Of a stretch of 64,000 nucleotides of DNA, positions 4,090-16,135 are shown one piece after another (the first letter of the stretch is position 1; every line of letters starts with the position of its first letter). The notes below the pieces were generated by a model. That model did no database searches, was not told where the DNA came from, and saw only the letters and a program-made list of their open reading frames with translations. This DNA comes from Providencia rettgeri (GTDB lineage: Bacteria > Pseudomonadota > Gammaproteobacteria > Enterobacterales > Enterobacteriaceae), in contig NZ_CP053896.1 in the NCBI RefSeq assembly GCF_013255915.1, forward strand, positions 744,001 to 808,000, in the 5' to 3' direction. The position numbers and the translations under genes were made by a program.

Positions 4090-5385
4090 ATGAAACTGTA
4101 TAATTTAAAAGATAACAATGAACAAGTAAGTTTTGCACAAGCGGTTAAGCAGGGGTTAGGTAAGCAGCAAGGTTTATTTTTTCCTCAAGACTTACCTGAG
4201 TTTACAGCGGCTGAAATCGACGAATTATTAAAATTAGATTTCGTCACACGTAGCAGCCGAATTTTAAGTGCCTTTATTGGTGATGAAATTCCACAAGAAG
4301 AATTAGCTGCACGTGTTAAAACCGCGTTTGCTTTTCCTGCGCCAGTTTCTAAGGTTGAAGATGATGTAGCAACGTTGGAGTTATATCATGGGCCAACACT
4401 CGCATTTAAAGACTTCGGTGGCAGATTTATGGCTCAGGCATTGGGCCAAGTAGCTGGTGAGCAGCCGGTGACCATTTTGACTGCCACTTCTGGGGATACA
4501 GGAGCCGCGGTTGCACACGCATTCTATCGTCTTAAGAACGTGCAAGTTGTTATTCTCTATCCAGAAGGAAAAATTAGCCCGCTGCAAGAGAAACTCTTCT
4601 GCACGCTGGGTGAAAATATTCATACGGTTGCGATTAAAGATGACTTCGATGCATGCCAGGCATTAGTAAAACAATCATTTGATGATGAAGAGCTGAAAAA
4701 GGCGTTGTATTTAAACTCGGCGAACTCGATCAATATCAGTCGTTTGTTAGCTCAAATTTGTTATTACTTCGAAGCCGTCGCGCAGATCCCAGCAGAAAAA
4801 CGTGATCAATTAGTGATCTCGGTTCCGAGTGGTAATTTTGGTGACCTTACGGCAGGTTTATTAGCTAAATCAATGGGCCTACCGGTTAAACGCTTTATTG
4901 CAGCAACTAACGTAAATGACACTGTGCCGCGTTACCTTGTTGATGGGCAATGGAAACCAAAGCAAACTGTGGCAACATTATCGAACGCCATGGATGTTAG
5001 CCAGCCAAACAACTGGCCTCGTATTGAAGAGTTATTCCGCCGTAAAGGTTGGTCCCTTGATGAATTAGGCCATGGAGCGGTGAGTGACGACGTGACTAAA
5101 GAGACAGTACGTGAATTAGATAAAAAAGGGTATTTATCTGAGCCACATGCTGCGGTTGCTTATCGTGTGCTTCGTGACCAGTTGCAAGAAGGTGAATACG
5201 GGCTGTTTTTAGGCACGGCACACCCAGCTAAGTTTAAAGAAAGTGTTGAAGAAATTCTTAATAAGGCAATACCTTTACCGAAAGAGTTAGCAGAGCGTGC
5301 GGAACTACCACTCCTCTCACACTTTTTACCATCTGACTTTGCACAATTACGCGCATTTTTAATGAAATTAGCACCTAAGCAATAA
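4090..5385 (+). CDS. thrC: threonine synthase
   Basis: PLP enzyme that converts O-phosphohomoserine to threonine and phosphate, the last pathway step. The lysine in GPTLAFKDFGGRFM (near residue 108) is the PLP-binding residue. TSGDTGAAVAHAF and SVPSGNFGDLTAG fit phosphate and substrate binding in the fold type II family. The length is 431 aa against 428 in E. coli. Last gene of thrABC; a strong rho-independent terminator starts 17 bp after the stop codon. Confidence 0.97.
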   Translation: MKLYNLKDNNEQVSFAQAVKQGLGKQQGLFFPQDLPEFTAAEIDELLKLDFVTRSSRILSAFIGDEIPQEELAARVKTAFAFPAPVSKVEDDVATLELYHGPTLAFKDFGGRFMAQALGQVAGEQPVTILTATSGDTGAAVAHAFYRLKNVQVVILYPEGKISPLQEKLFCTLGENIHTVAIKDDFDACQALVKQSFDDEELKKALYLNSANSINISRLLAQICYYFEAVAQIPAEKRDQLVISVPSGNFGDLTAGLLAKSMGLPVKRFIAATNVNDTVPRYLVDGQWKPKQTVATLSNAMDVSQPNNWPRIEELFRRKGWSLDELGHGAVSDDVTKETVRELDKKGYLSEPHAAVAYRVLRDQLQEGEYGLFLGTAHPAKFKESVEEILNKAIPLPKELAERAELPLLSHFLPSDFAQLRAFLMKLAPKQ

Positions 5386-5401
5386 AAATTGCAAGTGTAC
5401 G

Positions 5402-5429
5402 AAAAACGGAAGCGAAAGCTTCCGTTTTT
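5402..5429 (+). terminator. thrABC terminator
   Basis: A 12-bp perfect stem AAAAACGGAAGC with a GAAA tetraloop; the right arm ends in five T. It marks the end of the thr operon and the left border of the accessory region. Confidence 0.85.
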
Positions 5430-5511
5430 ATTGGTAATACCATCTTTTATAAAGATAATTATATGGTTTCATATTGCCACATCACTTATTCACTTCTAAC
5501 GGATTTATTTG

Positions 5512-6093
5512 TCACATTGAGCTAATGCTAATACCATCGTGCCCATCTCTACCGCCATCAGGTCCACCGCGCCCTCCTTTTCCTCCTTGGCTACCATTGC
5601 CCCCATTTCCACCATTACCACTACCAGAGCCGTTGCCCCCATTACCTCCGTTACCGCCATTAGTTCCACCATGTCCCCCATTTCCCCCATTGCCATTTAC
5701 AGTTCCATTCCCGCCGTTCCCACCACTACCACCACCATCTCCATCACCGCCATTTCCGCCATCACCTCCAGTTACACTGCCATTACCGCCATTCCCTCCA
5801 TTTTGGCCATCACCACCGTGTCCACCATGACCACCGTTACCACCATGGCCACCTTGACTATCATTTCCAGCGTGACCCGAATTTCCGTTTTGTCCATAAC
5901 TTACAAAGCTAAAAATTTTAGAATAGTAATATTGGCCATGGAGTATCGAACATACTTTATTATTAATTTCATTAATATTGAGTTCATTTTTTAATAAACA
6001 GTTAGATGGAGTATTAAATAAGGAGTGAGAGTATGCTGAAAATGAAATAGAACTAATTAATAAGACGCCAAGTGAAATGTAATTTTTATACAT
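5512..6093 (-). CDS. secreted glycine-rich GGN-repeat protein
   Basis: Not recognised as a named family. The 193-aa product starts with a signal peptide (MYKNYISLGVLLISSISFSAYSHS), followed by about 50 ordinary residues with two Cys. The last 110 residues or so are almost pure Gly-Gly-Asn, with scattered His, Asp and Ser, ending near GGRGGPDGGRDGHDGISISSM. It resembles neither a TOMM precursor (few Cys/Ser in the repeats) nor a collagen (no GXY pattern). The start is set by GGAGGAA 6 bp upstream. It follows the 76-aa gene by 61 bp, with a hairpin between them, so the two are probably cotranscribed. Function unknown; a structural, adhesive, antimicrobial or metal-binding role is only a guess. 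Confidence 0.7.
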   Translation of the reverse strand: MYKNYISLGVLLISSISFSAYSHSLFNTPSNCLLKNELNINEINNKVCSILHGQYYYSKIFSFVSYGQNGNSGHAGNDSQGGHGGNGGHGGHGGDGQNGGNGGNGSVTGGDGGNGGDGDGGGSGGNGGNGTVNGNGGNGGHGGTNGGNGGNGGNGSGSGNGGNGGNGSQGGKGGRGGPDGGRDGHDGISISSM

Positions 6094-6095
6094 GG

Positions 6096-6140
6096 TAAAT
6101 TCCTCCGTTCCCCCCTCATCGAGTGAGGAGGGAAATATTT
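6096..6140 (-). other. intercistronic hairpin between the two glycine-rich genes
   Basis: Read on the minus strand, TTTCCCTCCTCA and TGAGGGGGGAA flank a short loop. The hairpin stands directly before the ribosome binding site of the 193-aa gene. It could protect the upstream mRNA, attenuate readthrough or tune translation of the second gene; the sequence does not decide which. Confidence 0.5.
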
Positions 6141-6154
6141 AGTGACGAGATATA

Positions 6155-6385
6155 TTATCTACCGTTGCCGCCATTACCGCCGTTACCACCATGGCCGCCA
6201 TTCCCTCCATTACCACCATTTCCTCCATTACCACCGTGACCGCCATTCCCTCCATTTCCTCCATGGTTTTGTTCATAAATAGTAGAATAAGTCGAAGTAT
6301 TGTCAGAATGTTTTTCTTGGAAAGAAGTTGCAGATGCTAGAATTGGGAATAATAAAGATACTATGACAATAGATGCTTTATACAT
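6155..6385 (-). CDS. small secreted GGN/GGH-repeat peptide
   Basis: A 76-aa protein with a signal peptide (MYKASIVIVSLLFPILASA), about 20 linker residues, and a mature tail from about residue 42 made only of GGN and GGH units, ending in NGR. No Cys, and no aromatic residue in the repeat. The signal peptide resembles that of the 52-aa gene upstream (M-F/Y-K-x-S-I, then LLFP and AT at the cleavage site). Its 5' region also shares the block GCAGTTCAYTTCAAT with that gene. GAGGAT before the ATG serves as ribosome binding site. It is the first gene of a probable two-gene unit with the longer repeat protein. Function unknown. Confidence 0.65.
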   Translation of the reverse strand: MYKASIVIVSLLFPILASATSFQEKHSDNTSTYSTIYEQNHGGNGGNGGHGGNGGNGGNGGNGGHGGNGGNGGNGR

Positions 6386-6650
6386 ATAAAATCCTCGATT
6401 AAAAGTTTAAATTGAAGTGAACTGCAAGGAAATTGTAATTCATGATTTTGAATAAGTAATTAATATTTTCATCTAAGAGTGAAATTAAATTTAGTCCACT
6501 GTTAATATAAAATAACATTATTTATTTTTTTTGTGCGTATTTTAAATGATTTATTAATAATGAATCATTTGAGATAATTAATTAATAATTTGCCAGGTAA
6601 TGTTTTGTTTTAAAATTAATTATCATAAGATTAGGGTTTTATGGGGTAGG
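6386..6650 (-). promoter_or_regulatory. promoter region of the glycine-rich gene pair
   Basis: Very AT-rich. On the minus strand a TACAAT -10-like hexamer stands about 55 bp before the 76-aa gene, followed by GCAGTTCACTTCAAT. A TATTAT hexamer and GCAGTTCATTTCAAT lie at the matching distance before the 52-aa gene. The likeness suggests a common regulator or shared ancestry; no -35 box is clear here. Confidence 0.4.
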
Positions 6651-6653
6651 ATA

Positions 6654-6690
6654 GTAAAGTGGAATATATTAAAATACAATTCCACTTTAC
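6654..6690. repeat. 12-bp inverted repeat
   Basis: GTAAAGTGGAAT (6654-6665) and its exact complement (6679-6690) enclose a 13-nt AT-rich loop. It lies downstream of the 52-aa gene and could end its transcript, but there is no T-run on either strand. Confidence 0.5.
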
Positions 6691-6804
6691 CATTGATTTT
6701 AACAGCATATAGGCCTATGTTTCCTAATGTAGTATATTAAAAGGATATAAGGCTATATATTATGAAGGGAATTACCTTAAGCTTTGTTTGATGTCTTCTG
6801 AATT

Positions 6805-6963
6805 TTATTTGATGTTCAGCCAAACATCATCATCATCCCCGTTATAGGCTACGTTTACGTCTATATCTAGGATAGGTGGCTCTGGTGGGAAAGGAAGAAT
6901 AGGAGTAGCGAAAGAGAGAGTTGGAAATAATAAAAATGCAAATATGATTGATTTTTTAAACAT
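6805..6963 (-). CDS. tiny secreted Pro/Asp-rich peptide
   Basis: A 52-codon gene. The signal peptide MFKKSIIFAFLLFPTLSFA is clear. The mature part of about 33 residues has a proline cluster (PFPPEPP), then an acidic stretch with DDDD and a WLNIK end. AAAAGGTGATT stands before the ATG. Signal peptide and 5' region are related to those of the 76-aa GGN peptide, although the mature sequences have nothing in common. Four Asp in a row could bind a cation, but that is speculation. Family not recognised. Confidence 0.6.
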   Translation of the reverse strand: MFKKSIIFAFLLFPTLSFATPILPFPPEPPILDIDVNVAYNGDDDDVWLNIK

Positions 6964-7124
6964 ATAATCACCTTTTAAAGTTAGTATTGAAATGAACTGC
7001 CTAGAAATAATAACTTATTTTTCTTGATGTTCAATAAATATTCAATCAATTTAGTAATAAAAAATGAAATTGGTCAAATAAAAATCTATTTGTTGTGTCT
7101 ATAACTAAATTTTATTTTTTTAAT

Positions 7125-7164
7125 TTAAAACCATATTAATATTTATTTAATAATATGGTTTTAA
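7125..7164. repeat. 14-bp inverted repeat after the 49-residue-repeat gene
   Basis: TTAAAACCATATTA (7125-7138) and its complement (7151-7164) lie 9 bp beyond the stop codon of the minus-strand gene. The position suits a transcript end, but no T-run follows on the minus strand. Confidence 0.45.
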
Positions 7165-7172
7165 AGTTCTAA

Positions 7173-7637
7173 TTAATTATTTTTTGAATATCCTATTATT
7201 TTACTTTGTATAGAAGCAGATGAACTATTTTTATGAAAGTTTAACATGGTGACGGCTTTTTCATTTTCATTCATATCGGAAAATGGTTTTGCAACTTTTA
7301 CCATCGATTTTTTATAGTTAGGTGATTGGCTTTGGTGGCTACTGATCATATTCTGCATTACTGGGGAGGTACTATTTTGAGTAAAATTCAATGCGGTAGC
7401 AGCTTGAGTATGTCTATCTAATTGAAGAAATGATTGGGTTGAGTTGATATTATCGTTGACTGAAGTACCCGCCTTACTCAAGTGGTCATTAATCGATTTT
7501 TGATTAGAATACGATGTATTGTTCTCAGTGAAATTTAATGCATTCGCTGCATTATAATGTATTTCTTTTTCTGTTTGAGCGTTTGCTACATGTGTTGTTA
7601 CAGTCACAAGTGTTAAAGCAAAAATAATTTTTTTCAT
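7173..7637 (-). CDS. exported protein with three 49-residue repeats, probable copper-regulon member
   Basis: Not recognised as a known family. The 154-aa product has a signal peptide cut after about residue 20 (TTHVANA-QTEK), so it is probably periplasmic. The motif A-x-x-x-LNF-x-x-N-x-T/S-S recurs with LNF at 34, 83 and 132, exactly 49 residues apart, and an Ile follows each at the same distance. His27 pairs with His76 and His52 with His101 at the same period, which could be metal ligands; the third unit lacks both. No Cys. A CusR-like palindrome lies 76 bp upstream, and the gene follows cusRS in the same direction after about 107 bp. Together these suggest copper or silver induction. The molecular role is unknown. 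Confidence 0.75.
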   Translation of the reverse strand: MKKIIFALTLVTVTTHVANAQTEKEIHYNAANALNFTENNTSYSNQKSINDHLSKAGTSVNDNINSTQSFLQLDRHTQAATALNFTQNSTSPVMQNMISSHQSQSPNYKKSMVKVAKPFSDMNENEKAVTMLNFHKNSSSASIQSKIIGYSKNN

Positions 7638-7712
7638 AACAAATCCTTATTAAGTTAGATAATTTATCTTGTAACTATAATAAGGCTTTATTTCTGTCTG
7701 AATACTGACAAC

Positions 7713-7734
7713 AAGATGACAAAATTGCCATTTA
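7713..7734. promoter_or_regulatory. CusR-box-like palindrome upstream of the repeat protein gene
   Basis: Compared with the perfect 22-bp box at 9870-9891, 18 of 22 positions are identical: AAGATGACAAA on the left and ATTGCCATTTA on the right. It lies between the end of cusS and the start of the 154-aa gene, 76 bp from the latter. This makes that gene a probable CusR target. Confidence 0.6.
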
Positions 7735-7744
7735 TGGTAGATAT

Positions 7745-9133
7745 TTAATTTGGTTCCTTAGGTAAAAATACAGTAAAACGTGTTGAAAAATCATCTGATG
7801 TTACAGTGATTCTTCCCTTATGCGCTAATATGATTGATTTGACGATAGCCAACCCAATTCCGCTCCCTTCATTTTTTCTTTGTCTTGATTTATCTACTCG
7901 ATAAAATCTGTCAAAGAGTTTTGCTAAATGTTCTTCTGGTATTTTTATGCCGGGATTGCTGATAATTAATTCAATACCATTTTTTACATTCGAAATATTA
8001 ATACTGACAGAATCCCCCTTTGGGGTATAGCGGATAGCATTTGATATTAAGTTAGTAATTGCTCTTCTTAACATATCTTTATCGGCCATAATAGGGTCTG
8101 TATCACCAATTAGCTTAAGCTTTATTTCATTCTCTTCCGCGAGATATTCAAAATAATCAAATATGAGCTCTATTTCAGTTTTAATATTAATAACTTTTTT
8201 CTCAGGGATAAGCCTATTATCATCTGCTTGAGCAAGAAAAAGCATATCAGAGATCATTCGTGATAGACGGTTATATTCTTCTAAATTAGAATATAACACT
8301 TCAACGAGTTCTTCTTTACTGCGATTTTTACTCAAAGATATTTGGGTTTCAGTCATTAAATTAGTGATAGGTGTACGCATTTCATGAGCTATATCTGCTG
8401 AGAAATTCGTTTGTCTTACGAAAACATCTTCAATTTTGACTAACATCTGATTAAATGATTTTGTTAATTGTTTTAATTCATTAGGTACAGAATCAGGGTC
8501 TAAACGCACACTTAAGTTTTCGGAAGTGACATTTTTGATTTCATCGCTCACATCTTTAAGGGGTTTTAATCCTTTAATTACAAGGAAATAAACGACAAGA
8601 ATAGTAAATAAGCACAATATAATAGCGCTGACAATTAAATTATTTATTAATGAACTCAGATAATCATGATGAAAATTTAATGATAATGCAGTAACCAACC
8701 GATATTGTTTAGACTCTGAAGGGGAATCTACCTGAATAATAATTTCAGATAGGCGATAATTTTTAAGCTCTTCTTGGTTATTTTTATGAGGATCATAATT
8801 TTTTAAGTACGTAATGAGCTTATCTGTTGCATTGGGAGATATTAATTCATTTCCTTTTTTATCAATGAGATAAATAGTAATGTCTTGGTGCTCATTAATA
8901 ATGGTTTTAATACGTGCATATTGTTCACTTTGTGAGTCTGTATTGTTATTTAACAAGCTACGGATCGTTAGGTTCAACTGGTTAAGTGTGTATTCATCTT
9001 GCTGTTTAAAATGCAACATAACCGAATTGATCATGATCGAGCTAAATAGTAACAAGGCGAGGGAGAGAGTAATACTGATCAAAACAATAAGACGAATTGA
9101 AATTGAGACAGGAGATCGAAAAAATTTAATCAT
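7745..9133 (-). CDS. cusS: copper/silver sensor histidine kinase
   Basis: Inner-membrane kinase expected to sense periplasmic Cu(I) or Ag(I) and phosphorylate CusR. It has a transmembrane helix near the N-terminus ([19 protein letters not shown]), a periplasmic loop of about 130 residues, a second helix ([19 protein letters not shown]), a HAMP linker, the H-box [15 protein letters not shown] and a C-terminal ATPase domain with [13 protein letters not shown] place the start at the ATG at 9133, whose ATGATTAA overlaps the cusR stop; this gives 462 aa against 480 in E. coli. An in-frame TTG lies 15 bp further upstream. The metal assignment rests on the neighbouring cusCFBA and on similarity. Confidence 0.88.
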
Positions 9134-9809
9134 TTTCAGGGATCTCAAGTAAATAGCCCATTCCCCTGATGGTATGGATCAATTTAGGCTCATAGCCTTG
9201 ATCTATCTTAGCTCTTAATCTTTTCACTGCTACATCAATCACATTGGTATCACTATCAAAATTCATATCCCACACTTTTGAAGCGATAAGAGAACGAGAA
9301 AGTACTTCACCTTGGTGAAGAATAAAAAATTCCAATAAAGAAAACTCTTTACTGGTGAGTATAATTTTATCATTTTCACGGGTAACGCGTCGCTTAATCA
9401 GGTCAACATGCAAGTTAGCAATGGTAAACTGTGTTTTTTGGATGCTGCTGTTGCCTCTGCGTAATAAAGTTCTTACTCGAGCGAGTAACTCCGAAAAATC
9501 AAATGGTTTAACGAGATAATCATCAGCACCTAACTCTAGTCCTTTGACTCGATGCTCAACATTACCTAATGCAGTGAGCATCAGTATTGGTGTATTTTTT
9601 CCTGAATTGCGTAAGCTCTTTGCAATTTCCCAGCCGTTAATATCAGGTAACATCACATCAAGAATAATTAAATCATAGTCTTCAGTTGTGGCCATATGCA
9701 GGCCTGTAATACCATTTTCGATTGCATCAACAATAAACCCGGACTCACTTAAGCCTTTAGACAAGTATTCTCTCGTTTTATGTTCATCTTCAACAATAAG
9801 TAATTTCAT
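9126..9809 (-). CDS. cusR: copper/silver response regulator
   Basis: OmpR/PhoB-type response regulator of 227 aa, the same length as E. coli CusR. The receiver domain has the phosphoacceptor Asp in [16 protein letters not shown] (near residue 51) and the conserved Lys in [12 protein letters not shown]. The C-terminal winged-helix domain (about 125-227) ends in [18 protein letters not shown]. When phosphorylated it should activate the divergent cusCFBA operon through the palindrome at 9870-9891. cusS follows with an 8-bp overlap, so the pair is translationally coupled. Confidence 0.92.
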
Positions 9810-9869
9810 CTCAGACCTATCAGCTGGGTAAATAATGCAGCCATTCTAAGCACTACAGCAACGAAATGT

Positions 9870-9891
9870 AAAATGACAAATTTGTCATTTT
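9870..9891. promoter_or_regulatory. CusR box
   Basis: A perfect 22-bp palindrome: AAAATGACAAA followed by its exact complement. It fits the E. coli CusR box as I recall it (AAAATGACAA, two free bases, TTGTCATTTT). It lies in the divergent cusR-cusC intergenic region and can serve both operons. Confidence 0.93.
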
Positions 9892-9963
9892 CATGTCATC
9901 AATCTAACAGGAGGTCTTTTTTACTATAGCTCCAATTTTAATTACTAGAGGCATGGCTATACC

Positions 9964-11358
9964 ATGTATTCCCCAAAAATATTAATAATAGCTTATGCCT
10001 TAACTTTGACGGGCTGTGTTTCGCTCGCTCCTGAATATCAACGCCCTAACCTTAATTTACCTCATCAATTCAATAGTCATGTTTCTGATGCAGCAAAGCA
10101 GGCTCAAACTGAATTATTGATCCCTAGTTGGGAACAATTTATTCAAGACCCTCAAATGAAAAGCGTGATAGAAATTGCACTAGAGAAAAACAGCGATTTA
10201 TACCTTGCTGCGTTAGATGTAGAGGAAGCTCGTGTACGTTTTGGGCTCGCGGGGGCAGAAAAATATCCTCAAGTTAATTCATCGATGAGTGGTGATTATA
10301 GTCAGTCGTTAGAGAGCGGGTCATCCTTTAATAAGAAATACAGCGTAGGCATTGATATCAGCTATGAGCTGGATTTTTTTGGGCGTATCAAAAATTTATC
10401 TGATGTAGACAAAGCAAAGTTTATTGCTTCTCAAGAGATGAGCCGTGCGACACAAATCATCACGATTAAAACAGTAGCAGAAGCGTACTTAGATGTGGTG
10501 TATAACCAAAAGCTATTATTAATTGCACAAGAGACAAAACAAAGTTATCTCAATAGTCAATCAATTGTAATGCAAAAAGTGGCGGCAGGAAAAGCCGCGC
10601 TATCAGACCTAGAACAAGCTAAAGGGCAAGTACAGTCTATTTCTATTAATATCGAAAAAATTGAAAGTGAAATTGCAAAAAATGAAAATTTACTGAATTT
10701 TTTGACAAATGACTATGCAACAAAAATAAACTTAGATCTAGGACGCTACGAGCCAAACTATCCTTTAATTACGACACCTCCAGATATTCCTTCTGAAATA
10801 TTGCTAAAGCGCCCAGATATTATGGCTGCGGAGCAAAACATTATTTCTGAGAATGCCAACATAGGTGTAGCGAGAGCAGCTTTCTTTCCTTCTATTTCCT
10901 TTAATACGGGAATTGCAAATAGTAATGATTCTTTAACGGGGTTATTTGACTCTTCAAATGGTATTTGGAATTTTATTCCTAAAATTACGCTACCTATTTT
11001 TACTGGGGGGACAAATAGCCGAAATTTAGAGTTGGCAAATATTAGAAAAAATAAAGCGATTGCTAATTACGAAAAAAGTATTCAAGTAGCGTTTCGAGAA
11101 GTGAAAGATGCCTTAGTGATAAAATTGAGTTTAGAAAAACAACTTATCTCCCAAGAGCAATATGTCAACACGCTGCAAAACGTCTTAACACAGAAACAAG
11201 CAAGTTATCGATATGGTGGTTTAAGTTATCTCGATGTTCTCGAAGCGCAGCGTAGCTTATTTACAGAACAGCAAAACTTATTGATGTTGAAAATAGAACA
11301 GCAGAAGAATGAAATAAATTTATTCTCTGCATTAGGTGGCGGATTAATCAAATCATGA
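9964..11358 (+). CDS. cusC: copper/silver efflux outer membrane channel
   Basis: Outer membrane factor of the CusCBA tripartite pump; TolC-like trimer forming the exit duct. The N-terminus has a lipoprotein signal (ALTLTGC, Cys near residue 18), as in E. coli CusC. Two OEP domains follow, with LDVVYNQKLLLIAQETKQSY in the first coiled coil and ILLKRPDIMAAEQNI opening the second, a hallmark of the NodT/CusC group. The length is 464 aa. First gene of cusCFBA, 72 bp after the CusR box. The start is the ATG at 9964; an earlier ATG at 9954 is out of frame. Confidence 0.93.
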   Translation: MYSPKILIIAYALTLTGCVSLAPEYQRPNLNLPHQFNSHVSDAAKQAQTELLIPSWEQFIQDPQMKSVIEIALEKNSDLYLAALDVEEARVRFGLAGAEKYPQVNSSMSGDYSQSLESGSSFNKKYSVGIDISYELDFFGRIKNLSDVDKAKFIASQEMSRATQIITIKTVAEAYLDVVYNQKLLLIAQETKQSYLNSQSIVMQKVAAGKAALSDLEQAKGQVQSISINIEKIESEIAKNENLLNFLTNDYATKINLDLGRYEPNYPLITTPPDIPSEILLKRPDIMAAEQNIISENANIGVARAAFFPSISFNTGIANSNDSLTGLFDSSNGIWNFIPKITLPIFTGGTNSRNLELANIRKNKAIANYEKSIQVAFREVKDALVIKLSLEKQLISQEQYVNTLQNVLTQKQASYRYGGLSYLDVLEAQRSLFTEQQNLLMLKIEQQKNEINLFSALGGGLIKS

Positions 11359-11366
11359 GGGTAAAA

Positions 11367-11708
11367 ATGAAAAAACTAAATACGGTATTTTTTGTAATTT
11401 CAATGGCGATATTAACAGCAACCAGCTATGCAAATGCAGCTGAACATAATCACTCTATTTATCCAGAAAAAGCGGCGGAACCAACAATTAACACTGAAGG
11501 AAAGCTAATCTCGATTGACAAAGATAATAAAAAATTAACGATAAATCATAAAGAAATAGAAAGCATTGGTTGGCCACCAATGACGATGCGTTTTACATAT
11601 GAAGATGAAAATATGATCAACGGTTTACAAGAAAATGATGAATTGAAATTTTCATTTGTACAACAAGGTAATCTTTCAATGTTGAAATCCGTCGAAAAAA
11701 TAAACTAA
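11367..11708 (+). CDS. cusF: periplasmic copper/silver chaperone
   Basis: Small periplasmic metallochaperone that hands Cu(I) or Ag(I) to CusB/CusA. A signal peptide (MKKLNTVFFVISMAILTATSYANA) precedes a small beta-barrel domain. The motif GWPPMTMRF contains the Trp and two Met that coordinate the metal in E. coli CusF; a His lies upstream in the LTINHKEIES segment. I prefer the ATG at 11367 (113 aa), with GAGGG just upstream; an ATG at 11355 overlaps the cusC stop and would add four residues. E. coli CusF is 110 aa. Confidence 0.9.
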   Translation: MKKLNTVFFVISMAILTATSYANAAEHNHSIYPEKAAEPTINTEGKLISIDKDNKKLTINHKEIESIGWPPMTMRFTYEDENMINGLQENDELKFSFVQQGNLSMLKSVEKIN

Positions 11709-11725
11709 ATAGGTAGAGAGATGTT

Positions 11726-12994
11726 ATGTCATTAGTTAAACTGACCAAATTGCTATTGGTAATTATTTTATCGAGCGTTATTTCAATTTTATTTTACCGT
11801 TATTTTTTCGTTATAGAAAATAATAGCCAATCAGTTGAAAAACAAGAACGCACCGTATTGTATTGGTATGATCCCATGTATCCCAATACCAAGTTTGATC
11901 AACCAGGGAAATCCCCTTTTATGGACATGGATCTTGTTCCTAAATATGCGGATGAAAACTTGGCTTCAGCGAATAGCAAAGGGGTAACAATTAACCCAAC
12001 ACAGACACAAAATTTAGGGCTTAAAACGGTGGATGTGAAGTGGGGGAAATTAAACTATGACTTAACATTTCCAGCCGAAATTGCGTTTAATGACCATCAA
12101 TTTGCTATTGTACAAGCACGCGAAAATGGTTTTGTTGAAAAAGTTTATCCATTCACAGTAGGTGAGAGGATCCAAAAAGGCGTTCCTATTGCTGAGCTAA
12201 CGATCCCTGCATGGGTTGAAGCACAAAGCGAATATCTTGCGCTTAAGCAAATGAATGCGAGCCAACAAGATCTTAATAGTGTCATTGAGCGTTTACGTTT
12301 AAATGGCATGCCAGAAGGCGCGCTTTCTCAGTTTATTAAAACAGGAAAAGTGCAAACACGTTTTACTATTCAAGCTCCTATTTCTGGGGTAATTACTGCA
12401 CTTAATCTACGTTTAGGGATGAATGTATCCAAAGAAGTCGTTATCGCACAAATACAAGGAACAGATCCATTATGGATTAATGCATCTGTTCCTCAGTCAG
12501 TTGCTGAATTACTTAATCAACAAACACAATTTACAGTTTCTATTCCTGCCTATCCTTCGCAGTTATTTACTGTAAAAAACTGGTTGATATTACCCAGTGC
12601 AGATCAAGCAAGTCGTACAATTAATATTCGTACAGAAATTGCTGATCCTAACCATTTATTAAAACCAGGTATGACAGCATATTTAAATTTAGTTGCAGAA
12701 GGTAATGAAAGTTTATTGATCCCTTCACAAGCCATTGTGGACTCTGGGAAAGAACAGCATGTTATTGCTGTTGGTGAGAATGGTGAATTTATTCCCAAAA
12801 GAGTACGAGTGCTGAGTGAATCTCAACAAATGACAGCAATATCTGAAGGCTTACAAGTGGGTGAGCATATAGTGACTCAGGGTATTTTCCTGATTGATTC
12901 TGAAGCGAATATTGCTGGTGCATTAGCCAAGATGGAAGCGCTTCCTGAAGTATCAGCGTCATCTAATCATTCATCACATAAATCTCAGGAGTAG
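11726..12994 (+). CDS. cusB: copper/silver efflux membrane fusion protein
   Basis: Periplasmic adaptor linking CusA to CusC. The N-terminal signal anchor (LLLVIILSSVISILFYRYFF) is followed by a Met-rich metal-binding segment: YDPMYPNTKFDQ and then SPFMDMDLVPKY. The three Met match those that bind metal in E. coli CusB. Lipoyl-like, hairpin and beta-barrel domains follow up to about residue 380. The C-terminus has a His/Ser-rich tail (SSNHSSHKSQE). Length 422 aa against 407 in E. coli. Spaced 17 bp from cusF and 3 bp from cusA. Confidence 0.93.
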   Translation: MSLVKLTKLLLVIILSSVISILFYRYFFVIENNSQSVEKQERTVLYWYDPMYPNTKFDQPGKSPFMDMDLVPKYADENLASANSKGVTINPTQTQNLGLKTVDVKWGKLNYDLTFPAEIAFNDHQFAIVQARENGFVEKVYPFTVGERIQKGVPIAELTIPAWVEAQSEYLALKQMNASQQDLNSVIERLRLNGMPEGALSQFIKTGKVQTRFTIQAPISGVITALNLRLGMNVSKEVVIAQIQGTDPLWINASVPQSVAELLNQQTQFTVSIPAYPSQLFTVKNWLILPSADQASRTINIRTEIADPNHLLKPGMTAYLNLVAEGNESLLIPSQAIVDSGKEQHVIAVGENGEFIPKRVRVLSESQQMTAISEGLQVGEHIVTQGIFLIDSEANIAGALAKMEALPEVSASSNHSSHKSQE

Positions 12995-12997
12995 AGT

Positions 12998-15900
12998 ATG
13001 TTGGAATGGATTATAAGACGCTCGGTTGCTAACCGATTTCTAGTGTTAATGGGAGTCGTGTTTTTAGTCATTGCGGGTATTTGGAGCATTCGCAGTACAC
13101 CAGTTGATGCATTACCTGACTTATCTGATGTACAAGTGATCATCAAAACCACTTATCCAGGGCAAGCGCCGCAACTGGTCGAAAACCAAGTTACCTACCC
13201 GATAACGACGACGATGCTATCTGTGCCGGGAGCAAAAACGGTGCGGGGGTTTTCTGCATTTGGTGACTCATATGTTTATGTTATTTTTGAAGATAATACA
13301 GATTTATACTGGGCTCGTTCACGAGTTTTAGAATATTTAAATCAAGTCCAAAACCAATTACCCAAAGGTGCAGTAGCCTCCATTGGCCCTGATGCGACAG
13401 GTGTTGGTTGGATTTTTGAATATGCTTTAGTGGATAAAACTGGAAAACATAATCTAGCAGAACTACGTTCATTACAAGATTGGTTTTTGAAATATGAATT
13501 GAAGGCTTTGCCTAATGTTTCAGAAGTGGCAACCGTTGGCGGTGTGGTTAAATCTTACCAAATCTTAGTTGACCCACTCAAGCTCAGCCAATTTTCAGTG
13601 ACATTACCTGAAATAAAACAGGCCGTTGAAATGGCTAACCAAGAAGCTGGTGGTTCATCGATTGAAATTGCTGAAGCTGAATATATGGTTAGAGCAAGTG
13701 GTTATCTTCAATCTATTGATGACTTCAATAAAATCTACCTAAAAACGCCAGAAAATGGTGTACCTATTTACCTACAAGATGTTGCTCGAATACAGGAAGG
13801 CCCCGAAATGCGTCGTGGGGTTGCTGAGCTAAATGGAGAAGGAGAGGTCGTTGGGGGAATTATTCTGCTTCGCTCTGGTGAAAATGCACGTAATGTGATT
13901 CAGGATGTAAAACAGAAACTTGAAGATTTAAGTGCTAGCTTGCCGGAAGGCATCGAAATTATCACGACTTATGATAGAAGCATTCTTATTGATAACGCGA
14001 TTGATAATTTAAGTTATAAGTTACTAGAAGAATTTATTGTTGTCGCATTAGTGTGTGCCGTTTTTTTATGGCATTTCCGTTCTGCTCTCGTGGCAATTAT
14101 TTCTTTGCCCCTTGGATTATTTATTGCCTTTATCGTCATGCGCTACCAAGGAATAAATGCAAATATTATGTCGTTAGGGGGCATTGCAATTGCGATCGGA
14201 GCAATGGTGGATGCCGCCATTGTTATGATCGAAAATGCACATAAAAAATTAGAAAAATGGCAACATGAAAATGAAGATAAAGTCATTGATAATGCCCAGC
14301 GTTGGAAAGTTATTACGGATTCCGCTGTTGAAGTTGGGCCTGCATTATTTATCAGTTTATTAATTATCACATTGTCTTTTATTCCTATCTTTACGTTGGA
14401 AGGGCAAGAAGGCCGTTTATTTGGTCCACTTGCATTCACAAAAACCTATGCCATGGCGGGTGCTGCGGCTTTAGCGCTGATTGTTATTCCAATTCTAATG
14501 GGATATTGGATCCGCGGTAATATTCCAAATGAAAATAAAAACCCACTGAATCGTTGGTTGATCTCACTCTATAGCCCTATTTTAATTAAGGTATTAGCGT
14601 GGCCGAAAACCACCTTATTAATTGGTTTCTTATCTTTATTTACGGTGATATGGCCATTAAAAAATTTAGGTGGTGAATTTCTTCCTGCAATTAATGAAGG
14701 TGACTTACTTTATATGCCTTCAACATTACCGGGTGTTTCGCCTGCACAAGCGGCATTTTTACTACAAAATACGGATAAGTTAATCAAAACTATTCCAGAG
14801 GTGGATACGGTATTTGGAAAAGTTGGTAAAGCTGAAACAGCAACGGATTCAGCCCCGATGGAAATGATTGAAACAACGATACGTTTGAAGCCGCAAGCAC
14901 AGTGGCGAGAAGGAATGACACTCGAAAAAATTATTGATGAGCTCGATGAAACTGTACGTTTACCTGGGGTTGCAAACTTATGGGTTCCACCTATTCGTAA
15001 CCGTATTGATATGTTATCTACGGGAGTCAAAAGCCCTATAGGTATTAAAGTATCAGGCAGGGATCTTGAAGAAATCGATGCATTAGCCCAAGAAATTGAA
15101 AAAGTCACAAAATCGGTACCGGGGGTGGTTTCAGTTTTGGCTGAGAGGTTGGTAGGCGGACGCTATATTGATGTCAAAATTGATAGAGAAAAAGCGGCTC
15201 GTTTTGGTATGAGTGTCAGCGACGTACAAGTGTATATTTCAATGGCCACTGGTGGGGAAATGATTGGGGAAACAGTTGAAGGGATTGAGCGTTACCCAAT
15301 TAGCATAAGATATCCTCAAGATTACCGAAATAGTGTATCTGCGATGAAGTTATTACCAATTTTAACGCCAAACAAACAGCAAATAGTACTTAGTGATGTT
15401 GCAGATGTCTCCGTGAATATGGGCGCTCCCATGTTGAAAACAGAGAACGCCAGACCGACTAGTTGGATTTATATTGATGCACGTGATCGTGATATGGTTT
15501 CTGTTATTAAAGATATTGATACAGCAATAAAAGATAATATTCAAATGAGGCCGGGTCTTAGCTATTCCTTTACGGGGCAATTTGAATTACTCGAAAGGGC
15601 TAACCAAAAATTAATGTTAATGGTTCCCGCGACCATCATGATTATTTTTGTACTACTTTATTTAGCCTTTAGACGATTTAGTGAAGCTTTACTGATTTTA
15701 TTAAGTTTACCTTTTGCTTTAGTGGGCGCGATTTGGTTCCTTTATTGGATGAACTTTAATTTATCAGTTGCAACAGGAACTGGATTTATTGCATTGGCAG
15801 GTGTCGCGGCTGAATTTGGCGTAGTTATGTTGATTTATTTACGCCATGCAATCGAAGATAAAGAAAAACAGCAAGGAATAAGCAAGCTATCAAACCAAGA

Positions 15901-16135
15901 TTTAGACCGTGCATTATATGAAGGTGCAGTTTTACGTGTTCGCCCTAAAGCCATGACGGTTGCCGTAATTTTAGCCGGTTTATTGCCAATATTACTTGGA
16001 ACAGGAGTCGGTTCAGAAGTGATGAGCCGTATTGCTGCACCGATGATTGGTGGAATGATAACTGCACCGTTATTATCCCTATTTATCATTCCTGCGGCTT
16101 ATAAATTAATCTGTCAGTTACGCCATAAAAAATAG
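12998..16135 (+). CDS. cusA: copper/silver efflux RND transporter
   Basis: Inner-membrane RND pump of the heavy-metal (HME) class; a trimer that exports Cu(I) or Ag(I) using the proton gradient. The 1045 aa match the family length (1047 in E. coli). Visible hallmarks are the N-terminal [13 protein letters not shown], the proton-relay helix [19 protein letters not shown], and the three methionines of the periplasmic metal site in [14 protein letters not shown] and RFGMSVSD. The RND duplication is evident, with twelve expected membrane helices. Last core gene of the operon; a copG-like gene follows after 45 bp. Confidence 0.95.

Follow-up and report, generated by a model that had tools for sequence, protein, structure and literature searches.

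Probably exported glycine-repeat proteins of Providencia and other Enterobacterales: a candidate two-gene operon downstream of thrC

Introduction

Polyglycine-II domains are rare among solved structures, and the polyglycine sandwich of phage S16 gp38, as described in PMC6851490, holds 37 glycines among 73 residues, arranged in 10 motifs. Bundles rich in glycine occur in a number of proteins that are not related to one another (PMC8409303), and stretches of the GGAGGX type are said to favour the polyglycine-II form (PMC7550000). Glycine also recurs in RTX proteins, which are described as having Gly/Asp-rich calcium nonapeptides and as being exported by type I secretion. Class II microcins and double-glycine bacteriocins have a double-glycine leader, with a dedicated exporter and an immunity gene nearby.

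Here we analysed a stretch of 64,000 nucleotides from Providencia rettgeri (the window), in which three small genes lie downstream of thrC. The original prediction had treated them as a set of secreted proteins with a constant leader and a variable cargo. In our assessment there is about an even chance that two of them form an operon for Sec-exported glycine-repeat proteins, one short and one long, which act as polyglycine-II units at the cell surface or in the matrix, and that the family is spread in Enterobacterales. The genes themselves are real, and their family is without a description in the searches made.

Results

Gene order downstream of thrC

In the 4.74-Mb genome that contains the window, ORFs of 193, 76 and 52 aa lie to the right of thrABC on the minus strand and are followed by a 154-aa SilE-like gene and by cusS and cusR; cusC, cusF, cusB and cusA come next on the plus strand, cusB and cusA being assigned from sequence and order, not by family search. 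The three small genes stand in a row, as had been predicted, and their N-termini look by eye like signal peptides (Table 1). The 193-aa long protein has eight GGX runs and a conserved C-terminal pattern. Past its gene, an inverted repeat was read by eye as a terminator common to it and thrC; no terminator was listed at this place by the scan, and Rfam gave no match at E 0.1 over 5380-7760. No transporter or immunity gene was recognisable in the interval, whose neighbours are thrC and either cus/silE or an aldo/keto reductase gene, and no secretion system was linked consistently to the glycine-repeat operons. Antisense to the 193-aa gene (5474-5994, plus strand), open frames of 118 and 151 aa, rich in Pro and in Thr/Ile, merely shadow the GGN repeats and are likely not genes.

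Table 1 Features of the glycine-repeat locus (window coordinates)
Feature	Position	Strand	Basis or remark
Long gene, 193 aa: signal peptide, spacer of about 40 aa with two Cys, GGX-repeat domain	5512-6093	-	contracted allele
Short gene, 76 aa: signal peptide MYKASI..SLLFPILASA, spacer of about 20 aa, (GGN/GGH)n tail ending NGR	6155-6385	-	
52-aa gene: leader homologous to that of the short gene; mature part Pro-rich, then NGDDDDVWLNIK	6805-6963	-	
Hairpin between short and long gene, its end 2 nt upstream of the Shine-Dalgarno GGAGG of the long gene	6108-6134	-	
5' region of the short-long operon: -10-like TACAAT at 6432-6437 (by eye) and GCAGTTCACTTCAAT at 6411-6425	6411-6437	-	presumed transcript start
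5' region of the 52-aa gene: promoter-like TTGAAC-16-TATTAT and GCAGTTCATTTCAAT; paralogous to the short gene's 5' region	6986-7034	-	
Inverted repeat AAAACGGAAGC-GAAA-GCTTCCGTTTT between the thrC end and the long-gene end	5402-5429	.	by eye

Likeness of leaders and 5' regions

An upstream block common to the 52- and 76-aa genes had been predicted, and GCAGTTCAYTTCAAT indeed has exactly two copies in the genome, both at this locus (6411-6425, 6986-7000); when as many as two mismatches were allowed, it matched 31 genome sites and the reversed control 28. The -10-like hexamer predicted at the same place in both genes was likewise recovered by eye, TACAAT and TATTAT (7007-7012) each lying 6 nt upstream of the block, and the promoter scan lists the latter, of the 52-aa gene, and not the former. 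No copy of the block was found upstream of the 193-aa gene, the second gene of the operon with the 76-aa gene.

The leaders of the 52- and 76-aa proteins are identical at 11 of 20 residues. Their local BLOSUM62 score of 53 was reached by none of the 946 pairs (maximum 40) among 44 signal peptides of the same genome, which were picked heuristically and some of which are probably not true signal peptides. At the DNA level, the two genes align from about -60/-55 to +60 with one 3-nt gap and a score of 42, compared with at most 23 (52-aa gene) and 16 (76-aa gene) against 331 other ORF starts in the window and in 400 kb of this genome. The 52-type and short-gene leaders of G160 agree at 14 of 20 residues, and a genus search with the 52-aa protein even found the short gene's leader in G165. 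These comparisons indicate that the two genes have their 5' region and signal peptide in common by homology. The leader of the 193-aa protein scored 33 against that of the 52-aa protein, equalled by 9 of the 946 random pairs (borderline), and 21 against that of the 76-aa protein, equalled by 194. The idea of one set of signal peptides was therefore borne out for the 52- and 76-aa proteins, whose likeness exceeds that of random signal peptides; for the 193-aa leader, no clear excess over unrelated signal peptides is seen. A first version of the leader test drew on a pool of 25 that included orthologues and was set aside for this reason; the 52/76 score was attained there by 26 of 300 pairs. The mature parts, held to be unrelated, do differ for the 52-aa protein; the 76- and 193-aa proteins have the same kind of GGX repeat, the original prediction itself having recorded GGN/GGH repeats in the former and a longer GGN repeat in the latter.

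Distribution in Providencia

Among the thrC-downstream stretches of 24 Providencia genomes, window included, 20 carry the long gene next to thrC, 19 of them with an intact pair and one (G168) with an eroded pair. The other four (G152, G155, G163, G166) have neither gene beside thrC, and no short-protein match was found elsewhere in them at E 0.001. A text screen of named thrC loci (80 loci listed, a collection that overlaps with the 24 genomes) placed such repeats near thrC in 7/10 Providencia, versus 0/70 of other genera; the ten Providencia loci are those with at least 87% identity, and the next locus, from Moellerella, has 83%. The long protein has 217-219 aa in the near relatives G153, G160 and G156, against 193 aa in the window, whose long gene is a contracted allele, and repeat copy number differs between two genomes of one species (76 vs 61 aa for the short protein, 193 vs 219 aa for the long one). 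The Cys pair is missing from 3 of 19 long proteins, and one more has a single Cys. In G168 the short gene has 49 aa and the long gene 168 aa; in this operon copy (L069:269-967) both frames are open, most glycine repeats are lost or replaced, and the copy is decaying as if constraint had been lifted.

The 52-aa gene was found in only 4 of the 24 genomes. In the three relatives that carry it the protein has 63-64 aa with a second DDDDVW unit, and the overall dN/dS of 0.40 indicates constraint weaker than in the glycine pair. Matches of the 52-aa protein in G056, G098 and G042 (E 0.03-0.08) were dropped, as was the genus match in G165, which is the short gene's leader. The concern that the genes might be absent or frameshifted in most relatives thus does not apply to the pair and does apply to the 52-aa gene, which appears from these comparisons to be a lineage-specific offshoot.

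The adjoining silE-cus block

The silE-cus block follows thrC in 14 of the 24 genomes and an aldo/keto reductase gene takes its place in 10. With the eroded copy of G168 counted, the pair occurs in 11 of the 14 genomes with silE-cus and in 9 of the 10 without it, and a copper accessory role based on SilE/Cus linkage was rejected on this independence count; the cus neighbourhood in the window looks accidental. The block itself (7173-16135; relatives L061-L083) is a gain or loss polymorphism across the genus. Its SilE-like 154-aa gene (7173-7637, minus strand) matches NCBIfam AgBindSilE at E 4.9e-7, but with 30 bits against a cut-off of 200. Upstream of this gene, at 7707-7730, lies the imperfect palindrome ATGACAAAATTGCCAT, which we take to resemble a CusR box and which a script pattern of wider spacing omits.

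Selection on the glycine repeats

dN/dS was obtained from Nei-Gojobori counts summed over genome pairs, in six comparisons whose pairwise sums are not independent. The GG domain had the lowest value of any region in all six (0-0.07, once nearly tied at 0.04 vs 0.05 for the leader), a value that the repeat alignment can lower by favouring Gly on Gly, with the equal length of several sequences limiting this bias; the range was 0.05-0.69 for leaders and 0.08-0.94 for spacers. For G000 (the genome of the window), G160 and G156 (three pairs summed), the GG tail of the short gene had 0 nonsynonymous vs 25 synonymous differences and the GG domain of the long gene a dN/dS of 0.04, and the GG domains gave 0.03-0.07 both with G159 included and in a separate set of six genomes. 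Non-Gly cells make up 18 of 1338 in the Gly columns of the long protein and 5 of 403 in those of the short one, and three to four different Gly codons are used in 73/74 and 22/23 of these columns, respectively. All these point to strong purifying selection on the GGX repeats. The comparison of signal and mature parts that had been proposed as a check came out opposite to a constant leader with variable cargo, for it is the repeats, more than the leader, that are preserved; such an arrangement describes the 52-aa gene only, and not the pair, in which the repeats are the most constrained part in six of six comparisons.

Conserved expression signals

All 23 aligned sequences (19/19 short genes and 4/4 52-aa genes) retain the motif GCAGT at about 40 nt upstream of the ATG, with a -10-like hexamer directly preceding it by eye. 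The promoter scan gave 16 sites for the region vs 12.4 expected, which is near chance, and does not list the short-gene promoter, so the evidence here is the conservation and not the scan. The leader element TGCAGTTTATTTAAT has four exact matches, in G158, G161, G165 and G168, each of which precedes the short gene. With at most one mismatch it has 56 sites in 22 of 24 genomes vs 40 for the reversed control; a genome-wide site was rejected on this count, and no regulon for the element was found in the 24 Providencia genomes.

A C-rich hairpin is present in all 19 intact short-long gaps and ends a few bases before the long gene's Shine-Dalgarno sequence. The whole gaps of the 19 operons fold at -16 to -24 kcal/mol, with z from -2.4 to -5.4 against mononucleotide shuffles; dinucleotide shuffles of three of them gave z of -1.7 for the window (11/200 shuffles as good) and of -3.1 and -3.5 for two others. 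Covariation is modest, with two-sided changes at one of six consensus pairs, in five sequences, among the 15 of 19 gaps aligned. Since no T-run follows, the hairpin is not a standard terminator. Outside the genus, a hairpin follows gene 1 in all six clusters folded, with z of -2.5 to -3.5 in L182, L183, L184 and L185 (L183 and L184 being alike in sequence) and weakly in Photorhabdus (z -2.1 in L186 and -1.2 in L187); the later gaps folded in L182, L184 and L185 showed no excess structure. Just upstream of one Photorhabdus short gene (L186:5285-5420) lies a tandem array of CATATAGT, possibly a variable-length switch.

Relatives in other genera

A profile of the long protein matched 12 of 392 genomes of the GTDB family, five of them Providencia. 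Five of the seven others have clear clusters: a short-long pair in G380 (thrC stretch identical to Photorhabdus bodei) and G254 (another Photorhabdus, 93%), and multi-gene clusters in G372 and G327 (nearest Pantoea dispersa, 81-84%) and in G035 (nearest Serratia, 77%). The order short gene, hairpin, long gene is kept in both Photorhabdus genomes. The match in G367 is doubtful (79 aa, single gene, stop inside the match). A second profile, which includes the cluster proteins of G380, G372, G327 and G035, matched 5 of 394 genomes of the order, a sample that overlaps with that of the family: the window, G035, G327, the Xenorhabdus-like G012 and, newly, G173. Of the matches to the 76-aa protein and the long profile, those in G115 (824-aa frame) and G147 (663-aa frame) were dropped as long but different proteins, that in G042 because its frame runs through a repeat of unrelated type, and that in G054 as a Gly/His/Arg-rich protein with another layout.

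The long-type proteins end in the consensus NGGNGGNGGNGSGSGNGGNGGNAGxGGxGGKGGxGGPNGGxDG, and 33 columns are invariant in the C-terminal alignment of eight proteins, 32 of them Gly. Low-complexity sequences may come to a common pattern by convergence; homology of these relatives seems likelier, because gene order and leader type are held in common. The 140-aa cluster protein of G372 has matches on 41 Pantoea plasmid records, none covering 80% of the query, and in one of these records the gene is labelled hypothetical protein (e.g. WP_111534089.1).

The Pantoea-like and Serratia-like clusters (L182:3225-5313, L183:4814-6045, L184:3399-5019, L185:3154-4689) hold at least three GG-repeat genes each, with signal-peptide-like leaders; several have His clusters (HHKHHK), and G327 has two clusters. 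In G012 (L189:573-875) a single GG-repeat gene adjoins a type I secretion locus and a protease-inhibitor-like gene (labels by eye).

Family searches and fold

None of the three window proteins had a match above cut-off in Pfam, NCBIfam or PHROGs, and no family of bacteriocins, effectors or adhesins came up for them, so that such labels are guesses; a single PHROG, whose function is unassigned, matched the 76-aa protein at E 7e-5, probably through composition. A profile search of PDB chains gave no match at E 0.01, solved polyglycine-II members included, and single-sequence PDB matches were set aside as they look like low-complexity chance. BLAST found no match for the 193-aa protein in phage records or for the Photorhabdus protein in plasmid records, and these absences are weak evidence because BLAST masks low complexity. 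In open-licence full text, none of the matches listed was, by title or start of abstract, a paper about these proteins; a chance match, PMC12724215, mentions a Walker motif.

Repeat domains of the long proteins average 52% Gly and contain 6-10 GGX runs each. Most of these runs (148 of 170) have 9 (84) or 6 (64) residues, and 122 of the 151 gaps between them have 1-6 residues. This is the layout of a polyglycine-II bundle, with about half Gly, several short GGX motifs and short loops, by the yardstick given in PMC6851490, and from it we infer a polyglycine-II fold for the GGX domains, which might otherwise be disordered. Two AlphaFold runs gave pLDDT of 45 and 42 and pTM of 0.22 and 0.14, and no usable model; a CASP13 report calls such a polyglycine domain especially hard to predict.

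Discussion

In the mechanism that we propose, both proteins would be exported by Sec by means of their signal-peptide-like leaders and then cleaved, after which the GGX stretches would form polyglycine-II helices. The roughly nine runs of the long protein, mostly of 6 or 9 residues and mostly 1-6 residues apart, could pack side by side into a rigid bundle, with turn loops and Asn, His and Asp side chains facing outwards, and the short protein would be a unit of one or two helices. The hairpin may let the short protein be made in excess over the long one, as is probably the case. The pair would act outside the inner membrane, most likely at the surface, in the extracellular matrix or in a binding layer rather than as a toxin, and this is the weakest step of the proposal. 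The 52-aa gene may have arisen when the 5' region and leader of the short gene were copied onto another small mature part.

A bolder and rather doubtful version of the proposal is that Enterobacterales have an undescribed export module made purely of polyglycine-II proteins, in which a short unit in excess and a long bundle, under control of the hairpin, build a glycine-helix lattice outside the cell membrane. It includes, as part of the same joint claim, that Providencia, Photorhabdus and Pantoea-like genomes either retained the hairpin or evolved it anew with another sequence.

The place of the window's pair next to silE-cusSR-cusCFBA would suit metal-chelating periplasmic or extracellular proteins, partnered with silE-cus, in which Cu, Ag, Ni or Zn is bound by the GGH units (in relatives also by His clusters). 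Of the residues other than Gly in the short repeats, 15% are His, and clusters such as HHKHHK and HSHHHY occur in Pantoea-like, Serratia-like and G173 relatives. However, the presence of the pair in 9/10 Providencia without cus here and its absence from 3/14 with cus speak against such a partnership, the four proteins of the Photorhabdus relatives contain a single His among them, and the 5' block is by eye not a CusR-type repeat, which leaves chelation improbable, though the proteins may bind metal independently of cus. It is more improbable still that the genes encode antimicrobial or bacteriocin-like peptides, a secreted set acting on competitors or hosts as first suggested: the proteins are small, probably exported and glycine-rich, and glycine-rich antimicrobial peptides are described in animals, but the leaders are Sec-type and not double-glycine, the interval lacks a recognisable transporter or immunity gene, the short repeat domains are almost uncharged (0.3 K+R per protein), and selection is strongly purifying and not diversifying.

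Composition and GGX phase also resemble those of the snow flea antifreeze protein with its polyproline-II-type helices (PMC8409303), so that disordered, hydration- or antifreeze-like chains protecting the envelope against drying or freezing come into question. Against this, no Ala-rich face is apparent in the long protein, in which Asn, Ser, Asp and His account for most positions other than Gly. The Pantoea plasmid records do include plant and soil sources, but the repeats also occur in records of P. stuartii and P. alcalifaciens, which are host-associated mesophiles, and we hold protection of this kind to be very unlikely. Hardly credible, finally, is that these are unimportant low-complexity ORFs kept by chance since GGN repeats rarely give stop codons. 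Antisense and shifted frames of the repeats are open too, and copy number varies within one species as given above; yet leaders, Shine-Dalgarno sites, 5' element and hairpin are conserved over the genus, dN/dS of the Gly domains is very low, and operon order is identical in other genera.

The reading of these genes as leader and cargo is thus corrected, in that selection keeps the repeats. An exported glycine-repeat pair conserved in culturable bacteria would offer a tractable system for the polyglycine-II fold and for glycine-helix surfaces, and would give a name to genes now called hypothetical, as in the Pantoea record. If the lattice exists, it would be a bacterial counterpart of the tip of phage gp38, possibly binding outer-membrane or host surfaces, with the target set by loop residues.

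Compared with described systems, the locus lacks the marks of class II microcins, as its leaders are by eye of Sec type and the interval has no recognisable exporter or immunity gene. RTX proteins differ as well: no RTX model was among the Pfam matches, and the leaders are again Sec-type. The Pfam family GRP (PF07172), which we take to be a plant-type family, reaches 25 bits with the 76-aa protein, below its 30-bit cut-off and probably through composition. The PE_PGRS proteins of mycobacteria (PGRS, PF21526) are alike in having GGX repeats said to favour a polyglycine-II-like form (PMC7550000). The PGRS model matches the 76-aa protein weakly, with 17 bits vs a cut-off of 27; there is no PE domain match and no mycobacterial export, and the repeats here have Asn/His and not Ala. 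The snow flea antifreeze protein and other PPII bundles likewise have at least six glycine-rich helices with short loops (PMC8409303), whereas the former is a springtail protein with an Ala-rich face, and no sequence relation to it was found in the PDB. Hypothetical proteins of Pantoea megaplasmids (WP_111534089.1) have the signal-peptide-like leader, the Cys pair and the GGN repeats, and differ in their larger clusters and His clusters. The gp38 adhesin of phage S16 is similar in being about half glycine, with many short glycine-rich motifs and short loops (PMC6851490); it belongs, however, to the tail tip of a phage and includes attachment and beta-helix domains, whereas the proteins described here are free-standing bacterial proteins with Sec-type leaders.
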